Shown in pieces: positions 5,382 through 33,828 of a stretch of DNA of 64,000 nucleotides. Both the position numbers and the translations under genes were made by a program. The notes beneath the pieces were generated by a model that did no database searches, was not told where the DNA came from, and worked only from the letters and a program-made list of their open reading frames with translations. Every line of letters starts with the position of its first letter. Within the stretch, counting starts at the first letter, position 1. This DNA is from Gammaproteobacteria bacterium HGW-Gammaproteobacteria-2 (GTDB lineage Bacteria > Pseudomonadota > Gammaproteobacteria > Xanthomonadales > Xanthomonadaceae): positions 1-64,000 of the forward strand of contig PGZE01000031.1 of assembly GCA_002840015.1 (NCBI GenBank), in the 5' to 3' direction.

Positions 5382-5709
5382 ATGATCCAGATGCAGAGCT
5401 ACCTTGAGGCCGCCGACAACAGTGGCGCCAAAGAGTTGATGTGCATCAAGGTGTTGGGCGGCTCCAAGCGCCGCTACGCCTATATCGGTGACATCATCAA
5501 GGTGACCGTTTTACGACGCCGTGGTTGTGCGTACCCGTAAGGGGGTGCGTCGTCCCGATGGCTCGTTGATCCGTTTTGATGGTAACGCGGCAGTGTTGCT
5601 GAACAACAAGCAAGAGCCGATCGGAACGCGTATTTTCGGGCCGGTAACCCGTGAGCTGCGTACCGAGAAGTTCATGAAGATTGTCTCGCTCGCGCCTGAA
5701 GTGCTTTGA
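5382..5709 (+). pseudogene. rplN: 50S ribosomal protein L14, frameshifted by an internal deletion
   Basis: L14 forms intersubunit bridges at the elongation-factor site. From ATG 5382 the frame encodes [20 protein letters not shown] through GDIIKVTV, then loses homology near 5509-5511. The rest ([20 protein letters not shown] to SLAPEVL, ending at 5709) is in another frame. Compared with E. coli L14, the block matching KEAIPRGKVKKGDV is missing. Reconstructing codons gives a loss of about 41 nt, which explains the shift. L14 is essential, so an assembly or consensus gap is suspected. The two halves are otherwise perfectly normal. Confidence 0.92.
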
Positions 5710-13672: not shown

Positions 13673-14056
13673 ATGCGTCACAGAAAATCCGGCCGCAAAC
13701 TCAACCGCACCAGTGCGCATCGTGATGCGATGTTCCGTAACATGGCTGCGTCCTTGATCAATCACGAATTGATCCGCACCACCCTGCCGAAGGCCAAAGA
13801 GCTGCGTCGTGTGGCCGAGCCGTTGATTACGCTCGCCAAAGTCGATGGCGTTGCCAATCGTCGCCTGGCATTTTCTCGTCTGCGCGACAAGCAGGCGGTT
13901 GGCAAGCTGTTCGTCGAAATTGGACCGCGCTATCAGGCGCGTCCCGGCGGCTACCTGCGTATCCTCAAGTGCGGTTTCCGCCCTGGCGACAATGCACCGA
14001 TGGCGTATGTCGAGCTGGTTGATCGGCCGCAGGCCGAGGCCGTCGCGGTCGAGTAA
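13673..14056 (+). CDS. rplQ: 50S ribosomal protein L17
   Basis: L17 is a 127-residue 50S protein with the [20 protein letters not shown] start. It closes the alpha operon. A spacer of 130 bases containing a GACCC/GGGTC stem separates it from rpoA. TTTAGGGAAGCAA precedes the start. Confidence 0.97.
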
Positions 14057-14496: not shown

Positions 14497-15003
14497 ATGC
14501 CTGCCAACCCCTTTGCCTGGAGCTTTCGCGCGCAGTTTGTGTTTGCCGCGCTTGCCTGTTCTTCGTTGCTTGCGTTCGCGCTGTACTCGCAGCGCAGCCT
14601 TTTACTCGATCCGTGTCCGCTGTGCATCCTGCAACGGGTAGTGTTCATGGCGCTTGCGGTGGCCTTTGCCATCGGTGCATTGCATGCGCCACGCTCGCGC
14701 AATGGGCGCAGGGTCTACGGCGTGGTTGCAGCGTTGCTCGCGGCAACCGGTGCGGCAATTGCCAGCCGTCACCTTTGGTTGCAATCTCTGCCCCCTGAGT
14801 TGGTGCCGGCTTGTGGCCCGGGTTTGAGCTACATGCTTGAGGTTTTTCCGCTCAGTGACGTGATCCGCGATGTGTTCACCGGCTCGGGCGAATGCGCCAA
14901 GGTGGATTGGCGTCTGCTGGGGTTGTCGATGCCGGGCTGGACTCTGATCTGGTACCTGTTTCTCGGTTTTGGTGCGCTCTGGGCGGGTTTTCGCCGCCGC
15001 TGA
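14497..15003 (+). CDS. dsbB: Disulfide bond formation protein DsbB
   Basis: DsbB is the inner-membrane oxidase that re-oxidises periplasmic DsbA and passes electrons to quinone. ATG 14497 has GGAG seven bases upstream and gives 168 residues with four membrane segments. The first periplasmic cysteine pair is in DPCPLCILQR. The second pair is in VPACGPGLSYML and TGSGECAKVDW. Both redox pairs are intact. No dsbA is in the window. It is followed directly by the DAHP synthase gene. Confidence 0.93.
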   Translation: MPANPFAWSFRAQFVFAALACSSLLAFALYSQRSLLLDPCPLCILQRVVFMALAVAFAIGALHAPRSRNGRRVYGVVAALLAATGAAIASRHLWLQSLPPELVPACGPGLSYMLEVFPLSDVIRDVFTGSGECAKVDWRLLGLSMPGWTLIWYLFLGFGALWAGFRRR

Positions 15004-23792: not shown

Positions 23793-24431
23793 TCACAATG
23801 CGAGCGTTGTCACCAGCATCAGTGCGCCAGACACCGACAGCATCAGCCCGCCGGCACGCATCAGCGCGGGTGAACGGGTGCCGGCCAGGTGGGTCAATGT
23901 GTAGCCAGCAAGCGCGCCGGTACCCAGCAGAGCGCTGGTGGTCAGCATCAGGCCAAGGCCATAGAGCAGTCCCGACGCATTGGCCGGCATCTCGCTACCG
24001 TGCGCTTGGCCATGGAATACCGCAAACAGCACGACCAGCGCCCACACGATTACCTGCGGAGCGGGCTTGCTGCGCGTCAATAGCAGCCCGGTGCCGAGTA
24101 CCGACAGTCCGATCCCGGCCTCGATCAGTGTCGGGGCGAAGCGCAACGCGGTAACCAGAGTGCTCAGCGTCATCACCGTGACAAAGCTCGCCGGTATCGC
24201 CCAGCGTGCGCGATCGTTCAGCAGCCACGCCAGCAATCCCACGCCCAGCGCCACCAGCAGATGATCGGGCCCGGTCAGCGGATGCAGCAAGCCGTGCAGC
24301 AGTCCGGCGGCGTCGCCGCTACCCGGATGCGCCCATGCCGGGATCGGGAACAGCACCAGCAGTAACGGTAATGTCATCGGGCGTGATGTATGCGTGCCCG
24401 AATGGTCTGGAATGCGCTCAAGGGATGTCAT
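23793..24431 (-). CDS. hupE: HupE/UreJ-type membrane protein, probable nickel permease
   Basis: HupE proteins are nickel permeases found in hydrogenase and urease loci. GGAGG before ATG 24431 fixes the start and gives 212 residues. There is a signal-like N-terminus ending PAWAHPG, then the family signature HGLLHPLTGPDHLLVALGVG with its His/Asp residues, and a second motif FAVFHGQAHGSEMP. About six membrane helices follow. It is downstream of the cytochrome c gene on the same strand and shares the FNR-type promoter region, so nickel import is tied to hydrogenase expression. Confidence 0.85.
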   Translation of the reverse strand: MTSLERIPDHSGTHTSRPMTLPLLLVLFPIPAWAHPGSGDAAGLLHGLLHPLTGPDHLLVALGVGLLAWLLNDRARWAIPASFVTVMTLSTLVTALRFAPTLIEAGIGLSVLGTGLLLTRSKPAPQVIVWALVVLFAVFHGQAHGSEMPANASGLLYGLGLMLTTSALLGTGALAGYTLTHLAGTRSPALMRAGGLMLSVSGALMLVTTLAL

Positions 24432-24465: not shown

Positions 24466-24909
24466 TCAGTGTGCCGACAACGATTGCAAGGCCGTGATGA
24501 TCTGCTTGCGTTGCTCCGGGTCGCGAACCCGGGACAGGGTTTTGCTGGTGCCGGGCAGATACGCTTCGGGATCGGCGAGATAGGCGTCGATCGCGTCCGT
24601 GGTCCAGCTGCCGGTTTGCTGCGACAGCGCCAACGAATAGCCGAACCAGTGCGCGCGCGCCTTGCGTGCGCCGACGATGCCCCACAGCGACGGTGCGGAG
24701 CGCTCCGGGCCATCGGCGCTGATCCGGTGGCAGACCACGCATTGCTCGAGAGCCTCATGTTCGGAGGGAATCAGGGTGTTGAAGCGACCGCTATCGGTGC
24801 TCCGCACATCGCCGCGATCGGGCATGGCGTCACTGCCTGCCGCCCACGCGACCGCGACTACGATCACCGCGCATGCCACCAACGCCAGCAAATACGACGA
24901 ACTGCGCAA
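24466..24909 (-). CDS. Small class I cytochrome c, membrane-anchored or exported
   Basis: TTG 24909 has AAGGAG seven bases upstream and is preferred over the far upstream codon at 24993. The product has 147 residues with an N-terminal hydrophobic segment (SSYLLALVACAVIVVAVAWA). A single heme motif CVVCH is followed by PSLWGIVG and a distal methionine is not obvious. The tail YLPGTSKTLSRVRDPEQRKQIITAL is typical of cytochrome c550-like domains. In operon with hupE and next to the hydrogenase locus, it may carry electrons from H2 oxidation, which is inference. Confidence 0.8.
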   Translation of the reverse strand: MRSSSYLLALVACAVIVVAVAWAAGSDAMPDRGDVRSTDSGRFNTLIPSEHEALEQCVVCHRISADGPERSAPSLWGIVGARKARAHWFGYSLALSQQTGSWTTDAIDAYLADPEAYLPGTSKTLSRVRDPEQRKQIITALQSLSAH

Positions 24910-24986: not shown

Positions 24987-25000
24987 ATGACAATCGTCAA
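24987..25000 (-). promoter_or_regulatory. FNR-type box upstream of cytochrome c-hupE
   Basis: ATGACAATCGTCAA, which reads TTGACGATTGTCAT toward the cytochrome c gene, lies 78 bases before the TTG start. The identical 14-mer, in the same orientation relative to its target, occurs 60 bases before hybO. TTGAC-N4-GTCAT is one base off the FNR half-site TTGAT on one side. Confidence 0.7.
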
Positions 25001-25014
25001 AAAAAGTCGCGGGG

Positions 25015-25028
25015 TTGATTCAAATCAA
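25015..25028 (+). promoter_or_regulatory. Perfect FNR box upstream of the fnr-like gene
   Basis: TTGATTCAAATCAA is an exact TTGAT-N4-ATCAA FNR/Anr site. It is centred about 75 bases before the regulator start at 25096 and suggests autoregulation. It also lies in the divergent promoter region of the cytochrome c operon. Confidence 0.82.
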
Positions 25029-25095
25029 AGTGTTCGCTTGTGCCAGGGCCACTATGGGCAGGTCGCGGGCCAGCGGCCGCGAACGGGAACGGTCG

Positions 25096-25857
25096 ATGCA
25101 AACGATCACATCGTGCAATTCCTGCAACAGTGCAGGATGCCGGAGCTGCCGCCCCGGGCCACTGGGTGACTGGTCGCATCTGGATGCCGATCATGCTCGC
25201 GTCCTCGGTGCTCTGATCAGCGAGCAGTTCCATGCACGCGGCGATACAGTATTTCGCACCGGCGCCAGCAGCGGCGGTATCTACTGCATTGCCGAGGGCA
25301 TCGTCGGCCTGCGCCTGCTGCATGAAAACGGCACCAGCGTGCTGGTCGACATCGCCTATCCCGGTGATCTGATCGGCACCCGTGCATTCCTGCGCAATGG
25401 TCGGCATCGGACCACGGCCGAAGCCTTGAGTGAAGTCCGCCTGTGCCGGATTCCGGGCAGCGAGGCGCGGTGTCTGATGCACGATCACCCGGCGCTGCAC
25501 CAGCGCCTGGTGCGGGTGTGTCTGGATTCGCTGGATGCCTCGCAGGAAGCGATGGTGCAGGCGGCGGCGCTGCCCAATCGTGACCGGCTGTTTCATCTGT
25601 TGAGCCGATTGCTTGGGCATTGCGGCGCCACCGACAGTGCGGGCCGCGTGCAAGCGCAGTTGCCGATATCGCGCGAAGACATCGCCGGCATGCTCGGTGT
25701 GCGTCAGGAGACCCTTTCGCGCTTGCTCAAGCGGCTCAAGCAGGAAGGCGTGATCGATATTTCCGGTCGCCAATGCCAGTTGTTGTCGCTGCGACCCCTG
25801 AAGCCCGCACCGCCGATCGCCGATCGCTCGCATCCGTTGGCTCTTCGGCGAATTTGA
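25096..25857 (+). CDS. FNR-like Crp-family regulator
   Basis: The protein has 253 residues from ATG 25096. Four cysteines lie at the N-terminus (C7, C10, C15, C18 in TSCNSCNSAGCRSC), as in [4Fe-4S] oxygen sensors. A cyclic-nucleotide-type beta-barrel follows (about residues 25-145). The C-terminal winged helix has PISREDIAGMLGVRQETLSRLLKRL. The E-T-L-S-R recognition helix is the FNR-type E-x-x-S-R that reads TTGAT. FNR's fourth ligand lies in the barrel, whereas all four clustered cysteines are N-terminal here, so the cluster geometry may differ. It is encoded between the cytochrome c/hupE operon and the hydrogenase operon. Confidence 0.88.
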   Translation: MQTITSCNSCNSAGCRSCRPGPLGDWSHLDADHARVLGALISEQFHARGDTVFRTGASSGGIYCIAEGIVGLRLLHENGTSVLVDIAYPGDLIGTRAFLRNGRHRTTAEALSEVRLCRIPGSEARCLMHDHPALHQRLVRVCLDSLDASQEAMVQAAALPNRDRLFHLLSRLLGHCGATDSAGRVQAQLPISREDIAGMLGVRQETLSRLLKRLKQEGVIDISGRQCQLLSLRPLKPAPPIADRSHPLALRRI

Positions 25858-25867
25858 CGATTGTCAT
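25854..25867 (+). promoter_or_regulatory. FNR-type box upstream of hybO
   Basis: TTGACGATTGTCAT overlaps the stop codon of the regulator gene and is centred about 67 bases before the hybO start. With one more base it forms a perfect 15-bp inverted repeat with 24987-25001. It is the probable activator site of the hydrogenase operon. Confidence 0.72.
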
Positions 25868-25927
25868 GGCGTCGCTGCAATCACTATCGTCTGATGGCCA
25901 CGCACTGCACAGCACGGAGCGGGCGCG

Positions 25928-27112
25928 ATGATCACCGAAGCAAGGCAACAGGCTGTCTTCGATGCCACTCTCGGCGTCGATGCGGATCAGCCGATCACTC
26001 GGCTGGGCGGCATGAGCCGCCGCGAGATGATGAAATTCTGCGCTGGCGTGGCCGCCACCATGGGCCTGAGTCAGGTTGCCGGCGTGCGCATGGCGCTGGC
26101 CGCCGAGAATCCGAAGCGGCCACCGGTGATCTGGCTGCACGGCCAGGAGTGCACCGGCTGCACCGAATCGCTGTTGCGCGCGTACCACCCGACTCTGGAA
26201 ACGCTGCTGCTCGATGTGATCTCGCTCGACTACCACGACACCTTGTGCGTCGGCGCCGGCAAACAGGCGCTCGATTACAAGCACAAGATCATGAACGAAT
26301 ACCGCGGCAAGTACATTCTGGTCACCGAGGGTGGTACGCCGATGGCCGACGGTGGCATCTATTGCAAGGTTGGCGGAAAGACTCAGGTTGAACTGGTGCG
26401 CGAGGCGGCCGAAGGGGCGGCCGCGATCATCGCCATCGGATCGTGTGCCGCCTGGGGCGGCGTGCAGTCGGCCACTCCCAATCCGACTGGCGCCGTTGGC
26501 ACCCACGAGGTGATCCCGGGCAAGACGGTAATCAACGTACCCGGCTGTCCGCCCAATCCGTACAACTTCCTCTCGACTGTGTTGCACATCCTGACCTTCG
26601 GCGAACCGCCGGCGCTGGATGAGTTGAACCGGCCGAAGTTTGCGTATGGCCGCATCATCCACGAGAACTGCGAGCGCCGGCCGCACTTCGATGCCGGACG
26701 CTTTGCGCTGGAGTTTGGCGACGCCGGTCATCGTCAGGGATTCTGTCTGTACAAGATCGGCTGCAAAGGCCCGGAGACCCACGCCAACTGCCCGGCGATC
26801 GGCTTTGGCGATGTCGGTGAGGGCAACTGGCCGGTGGGCATCGGCGCACCGTGCTTTGGTTGCACCGAGAAAGGCGTCGGCTTCACCAAGCCCATTCACT
26901 CACTCGCCACCCTCAAGGCGCAGACTCCACCGTCGTTGTACCCGTCGATCGACGGCGCGCGTGGCGGCGGCGCCAGCCCCGGCGCCGCCGCCCTGGTCGG
27001 TGGCGTGGTCGGCGTGGCATTGGGTGCTGGCGCGGTATTCGTCAAACGCATGGCCGAGGAACGCGACCGCGACAATGCCGCGACCAAAGCCGAACCCGAG
27101 CGGGAGGGCTGA
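25928..27112 (+). CDS. hybO: [NiFe] hydrogenase small subunit, Hyb type (group 1c)
   Basis: The small subunit carries three iron-sulfur clusters from the NiFe site to the membrane partners. It has 394 residues with a Tat signal (MSRREMMKF, Arg31-Arg32). The proximal-cluster motif is ECTGCTES (C75, C78), the ordinary four-cysteine form, not the CTCCSE of oxygen-tolerant enzymes. Long blocks match my recall of E. coli HybO: IAIGSCAAWGGV, GCPPNPYNFLSTV, CERRPHFDAGRFA, GAPCFGCTEKGVGF. A C-terminal hydrophobic anchor (about residues 355-375) precedes a charged tail. It heads an operon of fifteen tightly packed genes. Confidence 0.96.
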   Translation: MITEARQQAVFDATLGVDADQPITRLGGMSRREMMKFCAGVAATMGLSQVAGVRMALAAENPKRPPVIWLHGQECTGCTESLLRAYHPTLETLLLDVISLDYHDTLCVGAGKQALDYKHKIMNEYRGKYILVTEGGTPMADGGIYCKVGGKTQVELVREAAEGAAAIIAIGSCAAWGGVQSATPNPTGAVGTHEVIPGKTVINVPGCPPNPYNFLSTVLHILTFGEPPALDELNRPKFAYGRIIHENCERRPHFDAGRFALEFGDAGHRQGFCLYKIGCKGPETHANCPAIGFGDVGEGNWPVGIGAPCFGCTEKGVGFTKPIHSLATLKAQTPPSLYPSIDGARGGGASPGAAALVGGVVGVALGAGAVFVKRMAEERDRDNAATKAEPEREG

Positions 27113-27115
27113 GGC

Positions 27116-28126
27116 ATGCTCACCCGCCGACAGTTCCTGGTGGGCGCCGGATCCGGCGCTGGCGCGGCCGCCAGCCTCGCCAGTGCGCCCGCTCAGGCGC
27201 TGGCACGCGAGCCGCAGCCGCTGTCCGCCGAGGCAGTGGGCATTCTTTATGACTCCACCCTGTGCATCGGCTGTCAGGCCTGTGTGTCGGCCTGCCGCGT
27301 CGCCAACGACGTGCAGATTGCGCATGTGCCGGCGCCGCTCGCCGACTGGAACGCGGCCAACACCTGGGCACTGGCCGAGGATCTCGATGGCGAAACGCTG
27401 AACGTCATCAAGGTGTATCGCAACGGCAGCGCGGCGGTGAAGGATCGCGACAGCGACGGTTTCGCCTTCATGAAGCGGCATTGTCTGCACTGCGTCGATC
27501 CGAGTTGCGTTTCGGTGTGCCCGGTGCAGGCGATGACCAAGGACCCGGTGACCGGCATCGTCGGCTACAACCCGGATGCCTGCATCGGCTGCCGCTACTG
27601 CTCATACGCGTGTCCGTACGGCGTGCCGCAGTTCGATCTCAATCGCGCCTTCGGCCAGATCAACAAGTGCGAGATGTGCCGCCACCTGCAGGCCAAGGGC
27701 GAGATCCCCGCCTGTTGCGATGTCTGCCCGACCGGGGCCTCGCTGTTCGGGCCGGTGGCGTTGTTGCAGGCCGAGGCTGATCGGCGTCTGGCCGCCGAAC
27801 CGGGGACAGCGTTGCGTTTCTCACGCGGCGATATCCGTGATGATCGCCCGGATCACGAGGCAGCGACAGCGCATTACGTCAAACACGTCTACGGCAAGAC
27901 CGAAGTCGGCGGCACCCAGGTGCGGTATCTGTCGGGCGTGGCGTTCGCCAGGCTCGGTTTACCGACGCTGGACGATTTCGCGCCGGTGCGTTTTGTCGAG
28001 GGCTTGCAGCACCGCCTTTACAACTACCTGCTGGCGCCGCTGGTGGTGCTGTTCGGGTTGGCCTGGGTGGTTCGACGCAACAAGCCGCGCATCGATGCCG
28101 GTGACGAATCGACGGAGGAGAACTGA
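27116..28126 (+). CDS. hybA: Hydrogenase 2-type iron-sulfur protein HybA
   Basis: HybA links the periplasmic hydrogenase dimer to the membrane subunit HybB. The 336 residues begin with a Tat signal (MLTRRQFLVGAG). Four ferredoxin-type cysteine groups follow, including CIGCQACVSAC, CLHCVDPSCVSVCP, CIGCRYCSYACPYG and CEMCRHLQAKGEIPACCDVCP, enough for four [4Fe-4S] clusters. A C-terminal membrane anchor (LYNYLLAPLVVLFGLAWVV) is present. The start lies three bases after the hybO stop. Confidence 0.94.
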   Translation: MLTRRQFLVGAGSGAGAAASLASAPAQALAREPQPLSAEAVGILYDSTLCIGCQACVSACRVANDVQIAHVPAPLADWNAANTWALAEDLDGETLNVIKVYRNGSAAVKDRDSDGFAFMKRHCLHCVDPSCVSVCPVQAMTKDPVTGIVGYNPDACIGCRYCSYACPYGVPQFDLNRAFGQINKCEMCRHLQAKGEIPACCDVCPTGASLFGPVALLQAEADRRLAAEPGTALRFSRGDIRDDRPDHEAATAHYVKHVYGKTEVGGTQVRYLSGVAFARLGLPTLDDFAPVRFVEGLQHRLYNYLLAPLVVLFGLAWVVRRNKPRIDAGDESTEEN

Positions 28127-28127
28127 G

Positions 28128-29285
28128 ATGTCTGGCCATCCGGACCGACTGCGCGGCAGCGCATTGTTCTCGCCGTTCACCCTGGTGCTTGGCCTGCTGG
28201 TGCTGATCGGTGGTTTCTTTTTGCTCAAGCGCTTCATTTTTGGCCTCGGCGCGGTCACCCATCTCAGTGCCGGCTATCCCTGGGGGATCTGGGTCACCTG
28301 GGATCTGATCATCGGCAGCGCGCTGGGTTGCGGCGGTTTTGCGATGGCGATCCTGATCTATGCCTTCAACCGTGGTCAGTACCATCCATTGATGCGCCCG
28401 GCGTTGTTGAGCAGCCTTTTTGGCTACCTGCTCGCCGGCGCGGCAGCGGTGTTCGACATGGGTCGCTGGTGGCAGTTCTACAACCTGCTGCTGCCATGGC
28501 ACTGGAACTTCAACTCGGTGATGCTGGAAACCGGCCTGTGCGTATCGGCGTACACCCTGTTGCTGATGGTTGAGTTCGCACCGACCGTGCTGGAGCGCTT
28601 CGGGGTGGAAACCTGGCGGCGGCGTCTGGAGCGGGTGATGTGGTTCATCATCGCGCTTGGCATCCTGTTGCCGCTGATGCACCAGTCCTCGCTCGGCTCG
28701 ATCCTGCTGGTGCTCGGCCACAAACTCTCGCCGCTGTACAACACACCGTGGTTGCCGCTGTTGTTCGTGAGCTCGGCGCTGACCATGGGTTACGGGCTGG
28801 TCATCGTCGAGGCGACTGTGGTTTCGCGCAGTTTCCGGCGGGCCTCCGAGCATGCGTTGCTGTCGCAGCTATCGAAAGTGGTGGGCTGGCTGCTGGCTGG
28901 ATGGTTGGCGTTTCGCTGGGGCGATCTGCTGTGGCGCGGCGCACTGGGCGATGCGTTGGCGATGACTGGTCTGGCCTGGTCGTTCTGGGTCGAAAACACG
29001 TTCGCCGCGTTTGCCGTGTATGCCTTCCTCACACCCAAGGCGCGTCGCGATGAAGTGATGACCTTCCTGGGTGGGGTGGCGTTGATGCTGTTTGGATTCA
29101 TGTATCGCATCGATGCCTACCTGGTCGCCTACACGCCGGCCGTCGATGGCTATCAATACTTCCCGTCGGCGCCGGAGTTTTTGGTGACCCTGGGCGTCAC
29201 CGCGCTGGAGATTCTGTTGTACCTCACCTTCATCAAATTGTTCCCGGTGCTGCACTCGCCAACACCGCGACTCACGCGCGCCTGA
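28128..29285 (+). CDS. hybB: Hydrogenase membrane subunit HybB (NrfD family)
   Basis: HybB is the polytopic NrfD-family partner that passes electrons to the quinone pool. The product has 385 residues and about ten membrane helices. Recognisable segments are YPWGIWVTWDLIIGSALGCGG and MHQSSLGSILLVLGHKLSPL. ATG 28128 follows the hybA stop by one base and has GGAGGAG upstream. A longer upstream reading in the same frame is a shadow of hybA. Confidence 0.93.
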   Translation: MSGHPDRLRGSALFSPFTLVLGLLVLIGGFFLLKRFIFGLGAVTHLSAGYPWGIWVTWDLIIGSALGCGGFAMAILIYAFNRGQYHPLMRPALLSSLFGYLLAGAAAVFDMGRWWQFYNLLLPWHWNFNSVMLETGLCVSAYTLLLMVEFAPTVLERFGVETWRRRLERVMWFIIALGILLPLMHQSSLGSILLVLGHKLSPLYNTPWLPLLFVSSALTMGYGLVIVEATVVSRSFRRASEHALLSQLSKVVGWLLAGWLAFRWGDLLWRGALGDALAMTGLAWSFWVENTFAAFAVYAFLTPKARRDEVMTFLGGVALMLFGFMYRIDAYLVAYTPAVDGYQYFPSAPEFLVTLGVTALEILLYLTFIKLFPVLHSPTPRLTRA

Positions 29286-29298
29286 ATCGGAGAGCCAC

Positions 29299-31005
29299 AT
29301 GACTCGTGTAGTGATCGATCCCATCACCCGCATCGAGGGGCATTTGCGCGTCGATGTCGAGGTTGACCGCGGTCGCGTGACCAAAGCATGGTCCTCCGGC
29401 CAGATGTGGCGCGGCATCGAACTGATCCTGAAAGGCCGCGATCCACGCGATGCGTGGGTGTTCGCACAGCGCATCTGCGGCGTGTGTACCACCGTTCACG
29501 CAGTCGCCTCGGTGCGTGCCGTGGAGAACGCCCTGCAATTGCCGGTGCCGTTGAATGCGCAGTACATTCGCAACCTGATCATCACCGCGCATGGTATCCA
29601 CGATCATCTGGTCCACTTCTACCAACTTGCCGCGCTCGACTGGGTCGATATCGTTTCCTCGCTCAAGGGCGACCCGAGCGGCGCCTCGGCGCTGGCGCAA
29701 TCGCTGTCCGAGTACAAAGGCAATTCGATACAGCAAATGCAGGCGGCACGCGATCGGCTGACCAACTTTGTCGGCAGTGGCCAGCTCGGTGTTTATGCGT
29801 CCGGCTATTGGGGCCATCCGGCGATGAAGCTGCCGCCCGATGCCAACCTGATGGCCGCGGCGCATTACCTGCAGGCGCTGGAAGTGCAACGCACCGCCAA
29901 CAAGATCGTCGCCATCCTCGGCGGCAAGACCCCGCACATCCAGAATCTGGCCGTTGGTGGCGTCGCCAATCCGATCAACCCCGACAGCCAGTCGACGCTG
30001 ACCCTGGAGCGGTTGTACGCGGTGAAGGCGTTGATCGACGAACTCGGCGACTTCGTGCACAACGCGATGATGGCCGACGTGGCCGCGGTCGGCGCGCTGT
30101 ATGCGGAATGGACCGGTTACGGCAAGGGCATCACCAACTATCTGTCGGTGCCCGACTTGCCGCTGGACACGATGGGCACGACGTTCGAGTTGCCCGGCGG
30201 CTACATTCCGGATGGCGACCTCGGCAAGTTCCGCGCGATCGGCGACTATCAGGACGCGTTTTTCCGCGACGGCGTGAAGGAGGAAATCGGTCACGCCTGG
30301 TATCAGTATCAGGGCAACGACGCCGCGCTGCATCCGTGGGATGGGCAGACCGAGCCACACTACACCGAGTTTCAGGACGACGGCAAATACTCGTGGATCA
30401 AGGCGCCGACCTTCCATGGCGAGCGCATGCAGGTCGGCCCGCTGGCCAATGTGCTGGCGATGGCAGCGGCCGGCCACGACTCGACCACCCGCCATCTCAA
30501 CAAGTTGATCGATCTGGCCAGCACCGTCGCCGGCACCCGTATTCCGATCAGCGCGCTGCATTCGACCATCGGCCGGATCGCTGCGCGCGCAGTGCGTTGC
30601 GCGGTGTTGCACGACAGCCTGGTCAATCAGTGGAGCCTGTTGATGGCGAACATAGCCAAACGCGATTTCGATACCTGGAACCGACCGGTGTTTCCGAAGG
30701 GCGAGATCCGCGGCTTCGGCTTCCATGAAGCACCGCGCGGCGTGCTCTCGCACTGGGTGGTGATCGAGGACGGCAAGATCAAGAACTATCAGGCGGTGGT
30801 GCCTTCGACCTGGAATGCTGGTCCACGCGATGATCAGGGTCGCCCGGGACCGTACGAGGCAGCGTTGCTCGACAACCCGGTGGCCGACGCCGAGTTGCCG
30901 CTGGAAGTGCTGCGCACGATCCACAGCTTCGATCCGTGCATCGCCTGCGCGATCCACATGACCGATCCGCAGCAGCGGCCCATCGTCCAGGTCAAGGCAT
31001 TTTGA
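29299..31005 (+). CDS. hybC: [NiFe] hydrogenase large subunit HybC
   Basis: The large subunit holds the Ni-Fe(CN)2CO site for H2 oxidation. It has 568 residues. The N-terminal L1 motif RICGVCTTVHA supplies C60 and C63. The C-terminal L2 motif DPCIACAIH supplies C547 and C550. Cleavage after His553 would remove the last 15 residues (MTDPQQRPIVQVKAF), as HybD does in E. coli, so the protein is made as a precursor. It has no Tat signal and should be exported with HybO. Confidence 0.97.
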   Translation: MTRVVIDPITRIEGHLRVDVEVDRGRVTKAWSSGQMWRGIELILKGRDPRDAWVFAQRICGVCTTVHAVASVRAVENALQLPVPLNAQYIRNLIITAHGIHDHLVHFYQLAALDWVDIVSSLKGDPSGASALAQSLSEYKGNSIQQMQAARDRLTNFVGSGQLGVYASGYWGHPAMKLPPDANLMAAAHYLQALEVQRTANKIVAILGGKTPHIQNLAVGGVANPINPDSQSTLTLERLYAVKALIDELGDFVHNAMMADVAAVGALYAEWTGYGKGITNYLSVPDLPLDTMGTTFELPGGYIPDGDLGKFRAIGDYQDAFFRDGVKEEIGHAWYQYQGNDAALHPWDGQTEPHYTEFQDDGKYSWIKAPTFHGERMQVGPLANVLAMAAAGHDSTTRHLNKLIDLASTVAGTRIPISALHSTIGRIAARAVRCAVLHDSLVNQWSLLMANIAKRDFDTWNRPVFPKGEIRGFGFHEAPRGVLSHWVVIEDGKIKNYQAVVPSTWNAGPRDDQGRPGPYEAALLDNPVADAELPLEVLRTIHSFDPCIACAIHMTDPQQRPIVQVKAF

Positions 31006-31007
31006 GC

Positions 31008-31499
31008 GTGAACATTCTGGTGCTTGGCATCGGCAACATCCTGCTCGAGGACGAAGGCATCGGCGTGCATGTGGTCGAGCGGTTGCAGGCGCGCTATGAC
31101 TTGCCGGAGAACGTCGTCGCACTCGACGGCGGCACCTCGGGCATGACCCTGCTCGACGATCTGGCGGCGTGCGAGCACCTGCTGGTGGTCGACTGCGGCC
31201 GACTCGATTTGCCGCCCGGTTCCGTGCGCGAATTTGTTGGCGACGCGGTGCCGGCATTTTTCCAGCAACGCATCTCGCCGCATCAGATCGGCCTGTCCGA
31301 CCTGCTGGCTGCCGCCGCATTGATCGATGTGTTGCCGGCCGGACTGTCGCTGATCGCGATCGAGCCCGAGAGCATCGAGCTGGGCACCGCGATGACGGCG
31401 ACCGGTGAGCGCGCCTGTGAGGCCGCGCTCGAACGCGTGTGCGAACGCCTGGCACAGTTGGGCGCGCCGGCGTTGCCGCGCCACCGTCAGGTGGCCTGA
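31008..31499 (+). CDS. hybD: Hydrogenase maturation endopeptidase
   Basis: This nickel-dependent protease removes the C-terminal extension of HybC after metal insertion. GTG 31008, two bases past the hybC stop, gives 163 residues beginning VNILVLGIGNILLEDEGIGV. Conserved Glu and Asp (LEDEGIG, VVDCGRLD) and the histidine in RISPHQIGLSDLL are the nickel-sensing residues of the family. Confidence 0.93.
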   Translation: MNILVLGIGNILLEDEGIGVHVVERLQARYDLPENVVALDGGTSGMTLLDDLAACEHLLVVDCGRLDLPPGSVREFVGDAVPAFFQQRISPHQIGLSDLLAAAALIDVLPAGLSLIAIEPESIELGTAMTATGERACEAALERVCERLAQLGAPALPRHRQVA

Positions 31500-31747
31500 T
31501 GTGTTTCGCCGCGCCAGCGCGTGTGGTTGAGGTCGCACCTGGGTTTGCGATGATCGAGCGTGGAGCCGAGCGGCTGCCGATCCTGCTGCATCTGCTCGAT
31601 GAGCCGGTTGCGGTCGGCGATTGGCTGGCGGTGCAGGCACAGCGCTTTGCGGTGGCGCGTTTGAGCGCCGGGGAAGCGGCTGAATTGCTCGATCTGTACC
31701 AACGCATCGAGCACCAGTTGGGCGATCACGAGAGGGTAACGGCATGA
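31499..31747 (+). CDS. HypC/HybG-family maturation chaperone, copy 1
   Basis: This 82-residue protein starts MCFAAPARVVEV, with the essential Cys2 of the HypC family that carries the Fe(CN)2CO intermediate. It lies between hybD and hybE, the position of a system-specific chaperone (HybG or HupF). A second, different hypC is at 36951. The start overlaps the hybD stop. Confidence 0.88.
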   Translation: MCFAAPARVVEVAPGFAMIERGAERLPILLHLLDEPVAVGDWLAVQAQRFAVARLSAGEAAELLDLYQRIEHQLGDHERVTA

Positions 31748-32220
31748 ACGCACATCAGGCAGACCTGCGGATATCCAGCCTCGCCATACGCTTTGCCCAG
31801 ATCGGCGATGAGCAGATGCGCGATCTACCGTTCTACAACCCGAATCTCGCGGTCGAGGCCTGGGATTTTTCCGAGTTCGACGACGCCGACCTGATCGGGG
31901 TGCTGATCACGCCATGGTTCATGAATCTGGTGCTGCTGCCACTGGAGCATGAGCCGATCGACAACAATCGTTATGGCGCATCACGGATGCTGGTGCTGGC
32001 CGGTGGCGAGCGTCGGTTTCTGTATGGCGGCGATCCGGCGGTGGGCGCCTTCTGGGCGCATTCGCTGCACTCGCCAATGCAGAAGTTCAGCTCGCAGGCG
32101 CACGCGCGCACTCAAGCGCGGCTGCTTCTGGCACAGGCCCTGACCCGCGACGAGCGCGCGCCATCGGCTTTGTGCAACCCCGGCCGACGCGCGTTGTTCG
32201 CACGGACATCGGACTTGTAA
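31744..32220 (+). CDS. hybE: [NiFe] hydrogenase assembly chaperone HybE
   Basis: HybE-family proteins (also HupJ/HoxT) help assemble or proofread the cofactor-bearing subunits before Tat export. The 158-residue product contains FYNPNLAVEAWDF, GVLITPWFMNLVLLP and the ERRFLYGGDPAVGAFWAHSLHSPM region typical of the family. The rubredoxin domain fused or adjacent in some systems is absent here. It overlaps the preceding hypC-like gene by four bases. Confidence 0.88.
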   Translation: MNAHQADLRISSLAIRFAQIGDEQMRDLPFYNPNLAVEAWDFSEFDDADLIGVLITPWFMNLVLLPLEHEPIDNNRYGASRMLVLAGGERRFLYGGDPAVGAFWAHSLHSPMQKFSSQAHARTQARLLLAQALTRDERAPSALCNPGRRALFARTSDL

Positions 32221-32321
32221 CGGCGCGCACGCGCGGATTACGGATCGTCGGCTGTTTTGATCTGGATCATGCCGGCTGCGGCCGGAGTGTGGCCTGATGG
32301 CACTCACGCTGCCAGCGGCGG

Positions 32322-33494
32322 GTGCCCGATATGGACGACACGCTCAGAACGGTTGCTTCGTTTGACGATGTCAACGAGGGCATCGAGCTGCGCTTGCGTC
32401 TGCGGATTGCGGCAGGGCGGGTTGCCGCACTGGAAATCAGCAATGCCCGACCCGCCGCCTTGCTGGCGGTTCTGCGTGGCCGCCGTGCCGACGAGGTGCC
32501 AGCGCTGGTGCAGCGGCTGTTTCCGATCTGCGGCAACGCGCATGCACTGGCCTGCGCAGGCGCCATCGCGGCAGCGCGGGGTGATGACCGCCATCGCCAC
32601 GCCGAACAACAACGCGATCTGCTGTGGGCCGAACTGGCGGTGGCGCATGGCTGGCGCTGCCTGATCGACTGGCCGGCAGCGCTCGGGCGGCCGCCGCAGT
32701 TGGCAGAGCTGCGCGAGTTGATGGACAGCGCCGGGCGCTTGCGTGCGCTGGCGCAAACGCTACCACCGGCCAACGCGGACGCGCGCACGCGAGCCCGCAA
32801 CGATCTGGCCAACGCGCTGGCTCAGGCGGTGTTTGGCGACAACACACCGCGCGCCCTGCACGCGGCAGCGCTGTGCGCGTGGGTCGGCACTCAGGCGAGC
32901 CCGCTGCACGAACTGCTGGATGTCATCCAGGGCTCACCGTTGGCCAGTCTGCGCCAGCCCGATGTGACGCTTCTGTCCACGCCCACAGCCAGCTGGTTTG
33001 CCGCCCGGCTGTCGGCCAATCCCGATTTCGGCCGCCACCCCAGCGCCGACGGCATGGCCGCCGAGGTCGGTGCCTATGCCCGCTGCAGCAGCGCCGAACG
33101 TGCGCTGTTCGATGCCTCCGGGCCGCTCGCTGCGCGCCTGCTGGCGATGCTGGCATCGGCGGCGGCGTTGGTCACCCGCTTGCGCGAGGCGGCCCAGGGG
33201 CTGCTGCCCGCCGTGGTGGTCGACGCGTGCTCGCCCTTGCCGGCCAGCGGCTGCGCAGTAGTCGATACGGTGCGTGGGCCATTGGCGTACTGGGTGCGGC
33301 TTGAAGCCGATCGCATCGCCGATCTGCGCTCGCTGGCGCCGACCGAATGGATGCTGCACCCGCGCGGGGTGTTGTACCAGTGGTTGCCTGGCTTGCCTGC
33401 CGAAGCTGCGCAACACGCCGCACGGCTGGCACTGGCCGCGGTCGATCCGTGCGCGGTGACCGCTATCGCGCTGGAGGGCATGGCCGATGCATGA
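32322..33494 (+). CDS. HupK/HoxV-like hydrogenase cofactor scaffold
   Basis: The 390-residue protein resembles a degenerate large subunit. An L1-like motif FPICGNAHALAC (C70, H74) and an L2-like end VDPCAVTAIALEG (C377) each keep one cysteine of the usual pair. That pattern fits HupK/HoxV scaffolds proposed to hold the iron part of the cofactor. The middle is alanine- and leucine-rich with no other motif. GTG 32322 or ATG 32331 may be the start. A 101-base gap before it is the largest within the operon. It overlaps hypA by eight bases. Confidence 0.75.
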   Translation: MPDMDDTLRTVASFDDVNEGIELRLRLRIAAGRVAALEISNARPAALLAVLRGRRADEVPALVQRLFPICGNAHALACAGAIAAARGDDRHRHAEQQRDLLWAELAVAHGWRCLIDWPAALGRPPQLAELRELMDSAGRLRALAQTLPPANADARTRARNDLANALAQAVFGDNTPRALHAAALCAWVGTQASPLHELLDVIQGSPLASLRQPDVTLLSTPTASWFAARLSANPDFGRHPSADGMAAEVGAYARCSSAERALFDASGPLAARLLAMLASAAALVTRLREAAQGLLPAVVVDACSPLPASGCAVVDTVRGPLAYWVRLEADRIADLRSLAPTEWMLHPRGVLYQWLPGLPAEAAQHAARLALAAVDPCAVTAIALEGMADA

Positions 33495-33828
33495 GCTGTC
33501 GCTGTGCCTGTCGATGATCGATCTGGTTGCCGAGCGCGTGCGCGCCGAGGGTGCGCATCGCGTACTGCGGATCGGCGTGGATGTTGGTGCACTCGGCCAC
33601 GTCGAGCCGCAGGCGCTGGCGTTTTGTTTCGAGAGTGCCGCGCGCCAGACCGCAGTCGAAGGCGCACGGCTGGAAATTCGGGTCGTGCCGGGGCGGGCGT
33701 TCTGCTTTGATTGCGGTGAAGGAGTGATGATCCGGCAACGCGGCGATGCCTGCCCGCGTTGTGGCGGTGGCGCGCTGCGGATCGAGGATGGCGAACAACT
33801 GCGGGTTACCGAGATGGAGATTGTCTGA
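33487..33828 (+). CDS. hypA: Hydrogenase nickel incorporation protein HypA
   Basis: HypA delivers nickel to the large-subunit precursor with HypB. The 113 residues start MHELSLC, where His2 binds nickel. The zinc site is formed by CFDC and CPRC in the C-terminal half. It is translationally coupled to hypB (TGATG). Confidence 0.95.

Follow-up and report, generated by a model that had tools for sequence, protein, structure and literature searches.

A Crp/Fnr-family regulator linked to FNR-like boxes and hydrogenase-2 type genes

The 64-kb stretch of DNA analysed here (the window) carries a Crp/Fnr-family regulator gene between a cytochrome c-hupE gene pair and a hydrogenase-2 type (hyb) operon, and the regulator is probably a direct activator of hyb. 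This assignment is based on the conservation of a box upstream of hybO, the spacing of this box to the promoter, its co-occurrence with the regulator, the rarity of canonical FNR in the genomes concerned and a residue-box swap in one homolog. From the observed anatomy of the locus and its conservation, linkage, co-occurrence and promoter spacing, we infer binding, activation and signal. We consider it fairly likely that a Crp/Fnr dimer reads TTGAYNATYRTCAW boxes and activates hyb as a class II activator, with low oxygen or a redox signal as the most likely cue.

According to this model, the regulator dimer would bind a box facing hybO (box C) and bring about class II activation of the [NiFe]-hydrogenase operon, whereas from a second box (box A) it would act in the same way on the cytochrome c-hupE genes. 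A third box (box B) would serve the control of the regulator gene, either through autoregulation or through a canonical FNR. The signal would most likely be low oxygen or the redox state of the cell, perceived via a conserved CxxC and the equivalent of Cys122 of FNR, as an Fe-S cluster or as thiols. If the model is true, H2 oxidation in these bacteria has an oxygen- or redox-type switch of its own rather than a global one alone, and the promoter footprint is clear enough for target prediction. A search of the open-access literature, in which most papers were judged from the search listings, found no paper on the regulator or on hybO boxes of such form.

The locus and its boxes

On the reverse strand, hupE (23793..24431, PF04955) and the gene of a single-haem c-type cytochrome with a CxxCH motif (24466..24909, start codon 24909-24907) are found, the latter with a weak match to cytochrome c-550 (37 bits versus a cut-off of 240). 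The forward strand encodes the hydrogenase-2 type small subunit HybO (25928..27112, ATG at 25928), followed by hybA (27116..28126) and hybB (28128..29285), both above their model cut-offs, the large subunit gene hybC (29299..31005, model match), the maturation protease gene hybD (31005..31499, start approximate), a hypC/hybG-like gene (31499..31747; 42.4 bits, just below the cut-off of 48), hybE (31744..32220, model match) and hypA (33487..33828). Further hyp genes follow, of which hypB, hypF and hypD are named by reading only. The best model matches of hybO, hybA, hybB and hybC identify a [NiFe] hydrogenase of the hydrogenase-2 (Hyb) type. The small subunit scores above the general hydA cut-off, and the equivalogs HybO (539.8 of 659) and HybC (833.7 of 969) score below theirs.

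The regulator (P0001, 253 aa) is encoded on the forward strand at 25096..25857. Its start is most likely the ATG at 25096 and not the TTG at 25015 given in the list of open reading frames, because this TTG lies inside box B and homologs align from 25096. PF00027, PF13545 and PF00325 are all above their cut-offs, which places the protein in the Crp/Fnr superfamily, and its predicted structure resembles those of CRP and FNR (best match 4byy, 3.6e-18; Aliivibrio fischeri FNR 8qto, 7.5e-17). The protein displays a CxxC-x4-CxxC arrangement at its N-terminus (C7, C10, C15 and C18), a further cysteine at C117 and a recognition helix with RQETLSR (ETLSR at 205-209). Residues 1-22 of the structure model have a pLDDT < 50, and the model is uninformative on the N-terminal cysteines.

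Box A (TTGACGATTGTCAT, 24987..25000, reverse strand) faces the cytochrome c gene, with its centre 84.5 bp from the start codon. Box B (TTGATTCAAATCAA, 25015..25028, forward strand) lies upstream of the regulator gene and corresponds to the canonical FNR consensus. Box C (again TTGACGATTGTCAT, 25854..25867, forward strand) faces hybO with its centre 67.5 bp from the ATG, and overlaps the stop codon of the regulator gene (25855-25857). Boxes A and C, extended by one base, form a perfect 15-bp inverted repeat (24987-25001 / 25853-25867). The preliminary description had reported the same sequence in front of both neighbouring operons, the perfect repeat around the regulator gene and a perfect FNR box before it, and all three are present at these positions.

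The length of the repeat is weak evidence by itself, since at least one exact 15-bp inverted repeat within 1 kb was obtained in 11 of 60 simulated windows. The first-order Markov expectation is 0.27 such repeats per window, and the window holds two. We therefore rejected repeat length as proof of function, as it is near chance for 64 kb. The other repeat (13990-14004 / 14668-14682) is most likely a chance occurrence. Despite these simulations and the second repeat, we regard it as very improbable that the repeats around the regulator gene are due to chance or are merely inherited, functionless sequence, as the boxes are conserved across diverged flanks and a fixed spacing to the -10 element in another order (see below) largely refutes chance. 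The position and conservation of the boxes, unlike the repeat length, are hard to attribute to chance.

Exact copies of TTGACGATTGTCAT occur only twice in the whole genome (3.31 Mb, 110 contigs), as boxes A and C, and a genome scan with TTGAYNNNNRTCAW returned 89 strand rows, two of which contain TTGACGATTGTCAT, both at the locus. With up to three mismatches, the 14-mer has eight matches in the window versus 4.3 expected, a number reached by 6 of 100 shuffles. A further full box at 5436 lies, by reading, inside a ribosomal protein gene. A box with one mismatch, TTGATCTGGATCAT at 32257-32270, lies in the gap that separates hybE from the next hyb/hyp gene and possibly marks an internal promoter; the scanned stretch of genome G059 (see below) holds no counterpart to it.

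Conservation of the boxes and linkage to the regulator

The second genome of the same genus that carries the locus (G765) has boxes A, B and C unchanged (42/42 bases) and the same 28-bp spacing from box A to box B, while the flanks are identical at 135/158 and 53/60 positions. Of the four genomes in the genus, two carry the regulator together with hyb and two carry neither, and hybO was found in none of the 32 other genomes of the family that were searched. This distribution suggests that the cluster may have arrived as one unit.

Six genomes of the window's own order encode HybO at 59-86% identity, without a regulator homolog closer than 27%. All six have an FNR-like box (at most one mismatch) within 330 bp of hybO, so hyb can bear FNR-like boxes without the regulator. 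In G059 (77% complete), the genes for cytochrome c and HybO are directly adjacent and divergent, and a box one base off box A has the same distance to the cytochrome start as in the window, 84.5 bp (distances by reading). More distant hybO loci (42-49% identity) have a box in 2 of 23 cases. Regulator homologs are rare in the wider searches: with the window genome counted, they were detected in 1/398 genomes of the order, 3/369 of the class and 2/398 of the phylum. One phylum match (G1171) encodes a distant homolog with the CxxC and an EW motif (L164), and no hyb gene was recognised within the 15 kb fetched around it.

The regulator is common in one other order, that of G465 (presumably Competibacterales), where 20 of 40 genomes encode a homolog (E ≤ 1e-30 to the G465 homolog), 31-35% identical to P0001 over the 16 rows aligned. 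Within 1.5 kb of the homolog, a cytochrome c gene is found in 19 of these 20 genomes and hupE in the twentieth; hybO is equally close in 12. In the remaining regulator genomes hybO lies on a different contig or at a distance, and it was not found in G790. When hybO was counted at ≥ 63% identity, 19 genomes have both genes, one only the regulator, three only hybO and 17 neither (Fisher p 4e-7, uncorrected for kinship).

From the 22 hybO loci with ≥ 63% identity in this order, G814, G804 and G806 were excluded because too little upstream sequence was available. A perfect box is present 46-73 bp upstream of hybO in 18 of the 19 usable promoters, all 18 in genomes with the regulator; the exception, G781, has no box at hybO and no regulator was found. 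The excluded G804 has such a box directly after the regulator gene, at the contig end. These boxes follow TTGAY-N-AT-Y-RTCAA. Across the 18 loci (69,422 positions) there are 19 perfect boxes, of which 18 are the hybO boxes. The boxes used for the footprint were chosen by a pattern without a requirement for the central AT, and central A and T are nonetheless invariant in 18/18, versus an average of 53% for the commonest base in flanking columns. The 18 hybO promoters are not 18 independent events, because the genomes are related.

Aligned without gaps, the promoters display an A-tract, the box and then a -10-like TANNTT at a fixed distance. Offset 21 gives the best -10 score (mean 3.39 of 6), and this constant distance positions the box centre near -40.5. 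By analogy, TCTGAT at 25890..25895 on the forward strand (4/6) is a possible -10 element in the window, which would place box C at -41.5; G765 has TTTGAT here.

The stretches between cytochrome c gene and regulator in the other order give a different result, with a perfect box in 0/20 and a box with one mismatch in 2/20. In these alignments, boxes A and B thus belong to this genus (box A also to G059), without conservation in the other order. The compact regulon that the preliminary description had put forward is hence retained in part: across orders, the box before hybO keeps its class II spacing and accompanies the regulator, while the two boxes before the regulator gene are not conserved in this way. 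Most of the cytochrome c/regulator stretches of the other order (L067-L093) share an AT-rich dyad, TGAACTATAGTTCA or near, with ATTATAG shortly beyond. This dyad lies near the cytochrome c start, where the window genome has its FNR boxes.

Candidate readers of the boxes

The window genome also encodes two canonical FNRs (C-x2-C-x5-C and the Cys122 equivalent), and FNR-like boxes occur at other promoters, including TTGACCATGATCAA at ccoN. Reading of the same boxes by both kinds of protein is therefore possible in this genome. In consequence, the boxes of the window genome may not form a regulon of this regulator alone. The boxes could instead be ordinary FNR sites read by a canonical FNR, with the regulator having other targets or only modulating. 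Box B is indeed a plain FNR consensus, and the regulator-free hyb operons of the window's own order bear FNR-like boxes as well. We consider this unlikely, as the other order presents the opposite picture: every usable hybO promoter from a regulator genome (18/18) has the box, yet among the 20 regulator genomes a canonical FNR was detected, with one query, only in G805. G781, in turn, encodes a canonical FNR and hybO, and neither regulator nor box was found there. Furthermore, the spacer N-AT-Y is present in 18/18 boxes accompanied by the regulator and in the boxes of the window, but in only one of eight boxes from the six regulator-free genomes of the own order.

Canonical FNR was found in 8 of the 40 genomes of the other order with one query at E ≤ 1e-15, a search that could miss other FNR-family proteins, and the mutual exclusion of regulator and canonical FNR is weak (Fisher p 0.044). 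A spacer unique to the regulator was also considered. This idea is weakened by the central AT in the window genome at a c-type cytochrome promoter (TATC) and at ccoN (CATG). Two FNR-like boxes of the window genome (on L137 and L094) lie 41 bp before ccoN and 73 bp before a CxxCH-protein gene. Direct activation of hyb by the regulator remains the reading that we prefer.

Cysteines, signal and relation to known regulators

Cysteine conservation was counted in a 19-row alignment of regulator homologs. C15 and C18 (CxxC) are present in 18/19 rows and C117, the Cys122 equivalent, in 19/19. C10 occurs in two rows, both from this genus, and C7 in those two and L073. The second CxxC is thus restricted to this genus, a third N-terminal cysteine after the conserved CxxC occurs in L067 and L068, and an equivalent of FNR Cys29 is absent in most rows. 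E205, S208 and R209 are invariant (19/19). The regulator had been described as having four N-terminal cysteines and an E-x-x-S-R helix; it has both, of which the helix is conserved and the set of four cysteines is not.

Sensing of oxygen or redox state by the regulator is plausible, since CxxC and C117 are conserved and the FNR of Acidithiobacillus ferrooxidans works with Cys20, Cys23 and Cys122 only, driving an FNR-responsive E. coli promoter (PMC6659574). The regulator might also act at the boxes in response to a non-oxygen signal, for example NO or thiol redox state. Its variable N-terminal cysteines would fit such a role, as would the precedent of HcpR, which belongs to the FNR family, controls nitrogen-oxide genes and reads TTGACnnnnGTCAA (PMC1274295), but the near-invariant CxxC and Cys122 equivalent and the functional three-cysteine FNR argue against it, and we give it a minor, though real, chance. 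Among the neighbouring genes named here, none was recognised as a nitrogen-oxide gene. If the model is true, the three-cysteine homologs would offer natural material on the ligand needs of FNR-type sensors.

The regulator departs from canonical FNR by lacking the spacing of Cys29 in Cys20-x2-Cys23-x5-Cys29, in place of which it has a second CxxC, and by scoring below the NCBIfam cut-offs for Fnr (64.5 of 228 bits) and FnrL (80.2 of 300 bits). The tree places it, provisionally and with moderate support, among the homologs of the other order together with L062 (80/92), apart from the canonical FNRs (90/85), with both forks drawn open and a long-branch warning. FnrT of Thiocapsa roseopersicina is an example of FNR-type control of a hydrogenase, and fnrN of Rhizobium leguminosarum is not known to be a dedicated hybO neighbour. 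E. coli FNR shares with the regulator the family, the ExxSR helix, CxxC and Cys122 equivalent, a TTGA-N6-TCAA box and class II spacing (of its directly activated promoters, 23 have a known start and 19 of these carry the site at -41.5 ± 4; PMC3688515); the regulator differs in mostly lacking a Cys29 equivalent, in the fixed central AT of its box and in its linkage to hydrogenase genes. A. ferrooxidans FNR resembles most other-order homologs in having only three of the four cluster cysteines, but is described as a master regulator, and the available part of the text makes no link to hydrogenase (PMC6659574). HcpR1 has the TTGACnnnnGTCAA box, a non-Arg residue before the contact Glu and often an adjoining target gene, yet its targets are hcp and related genes instead of hydrogenase, and the spacer is N4 (PMC1274295). 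Under low oxygen, Rhizobium leguminosarum FnrN likewise acts through an FNR-type promoter on genes for hydrogenase accessory proteins, but it controls hypBFCDEX, whereas hupSL is NifA-dependent (PMC3534401).

In one homolog (G607, 34% identity), the residue preceding the contact Glu is Arg instead of Gln204 (RRESISR); the gene of this homolog precedes an Fe-S/NrfD-type operon. A perfect TGTGATCTAAATCACA is found 110 bp upstream of the next ATG, and TATGATTTAGATCACA approximately 70 bp before the regulator start (start by reading). Comparative genomics has connected Arg at the CRP R180 position with a G as the third box base (PMC1274295). The G607 boxes appear to agree with this rule, as a single case without replicates, and such a residue-box swap would provide a clean specificity test. 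More tentatively, and with more doubt than confidence, the homologs may represent a distinct FNR-like lineage with reduced or altered cysteines, tied to H2 oxidation, with its own spacer-fixed TTGAYNATYRTCAW box, replacing canonical FNR in one order and including a naturally occurring exchange of the contact residue along with the box (Gln/His with TTGAY, Arg with TGTGA). The CRP-like boxes of G607 form an inverted pair around the homolog (L065, reverse strand; 3395 and 4293), which is the layout of the window with another motif.
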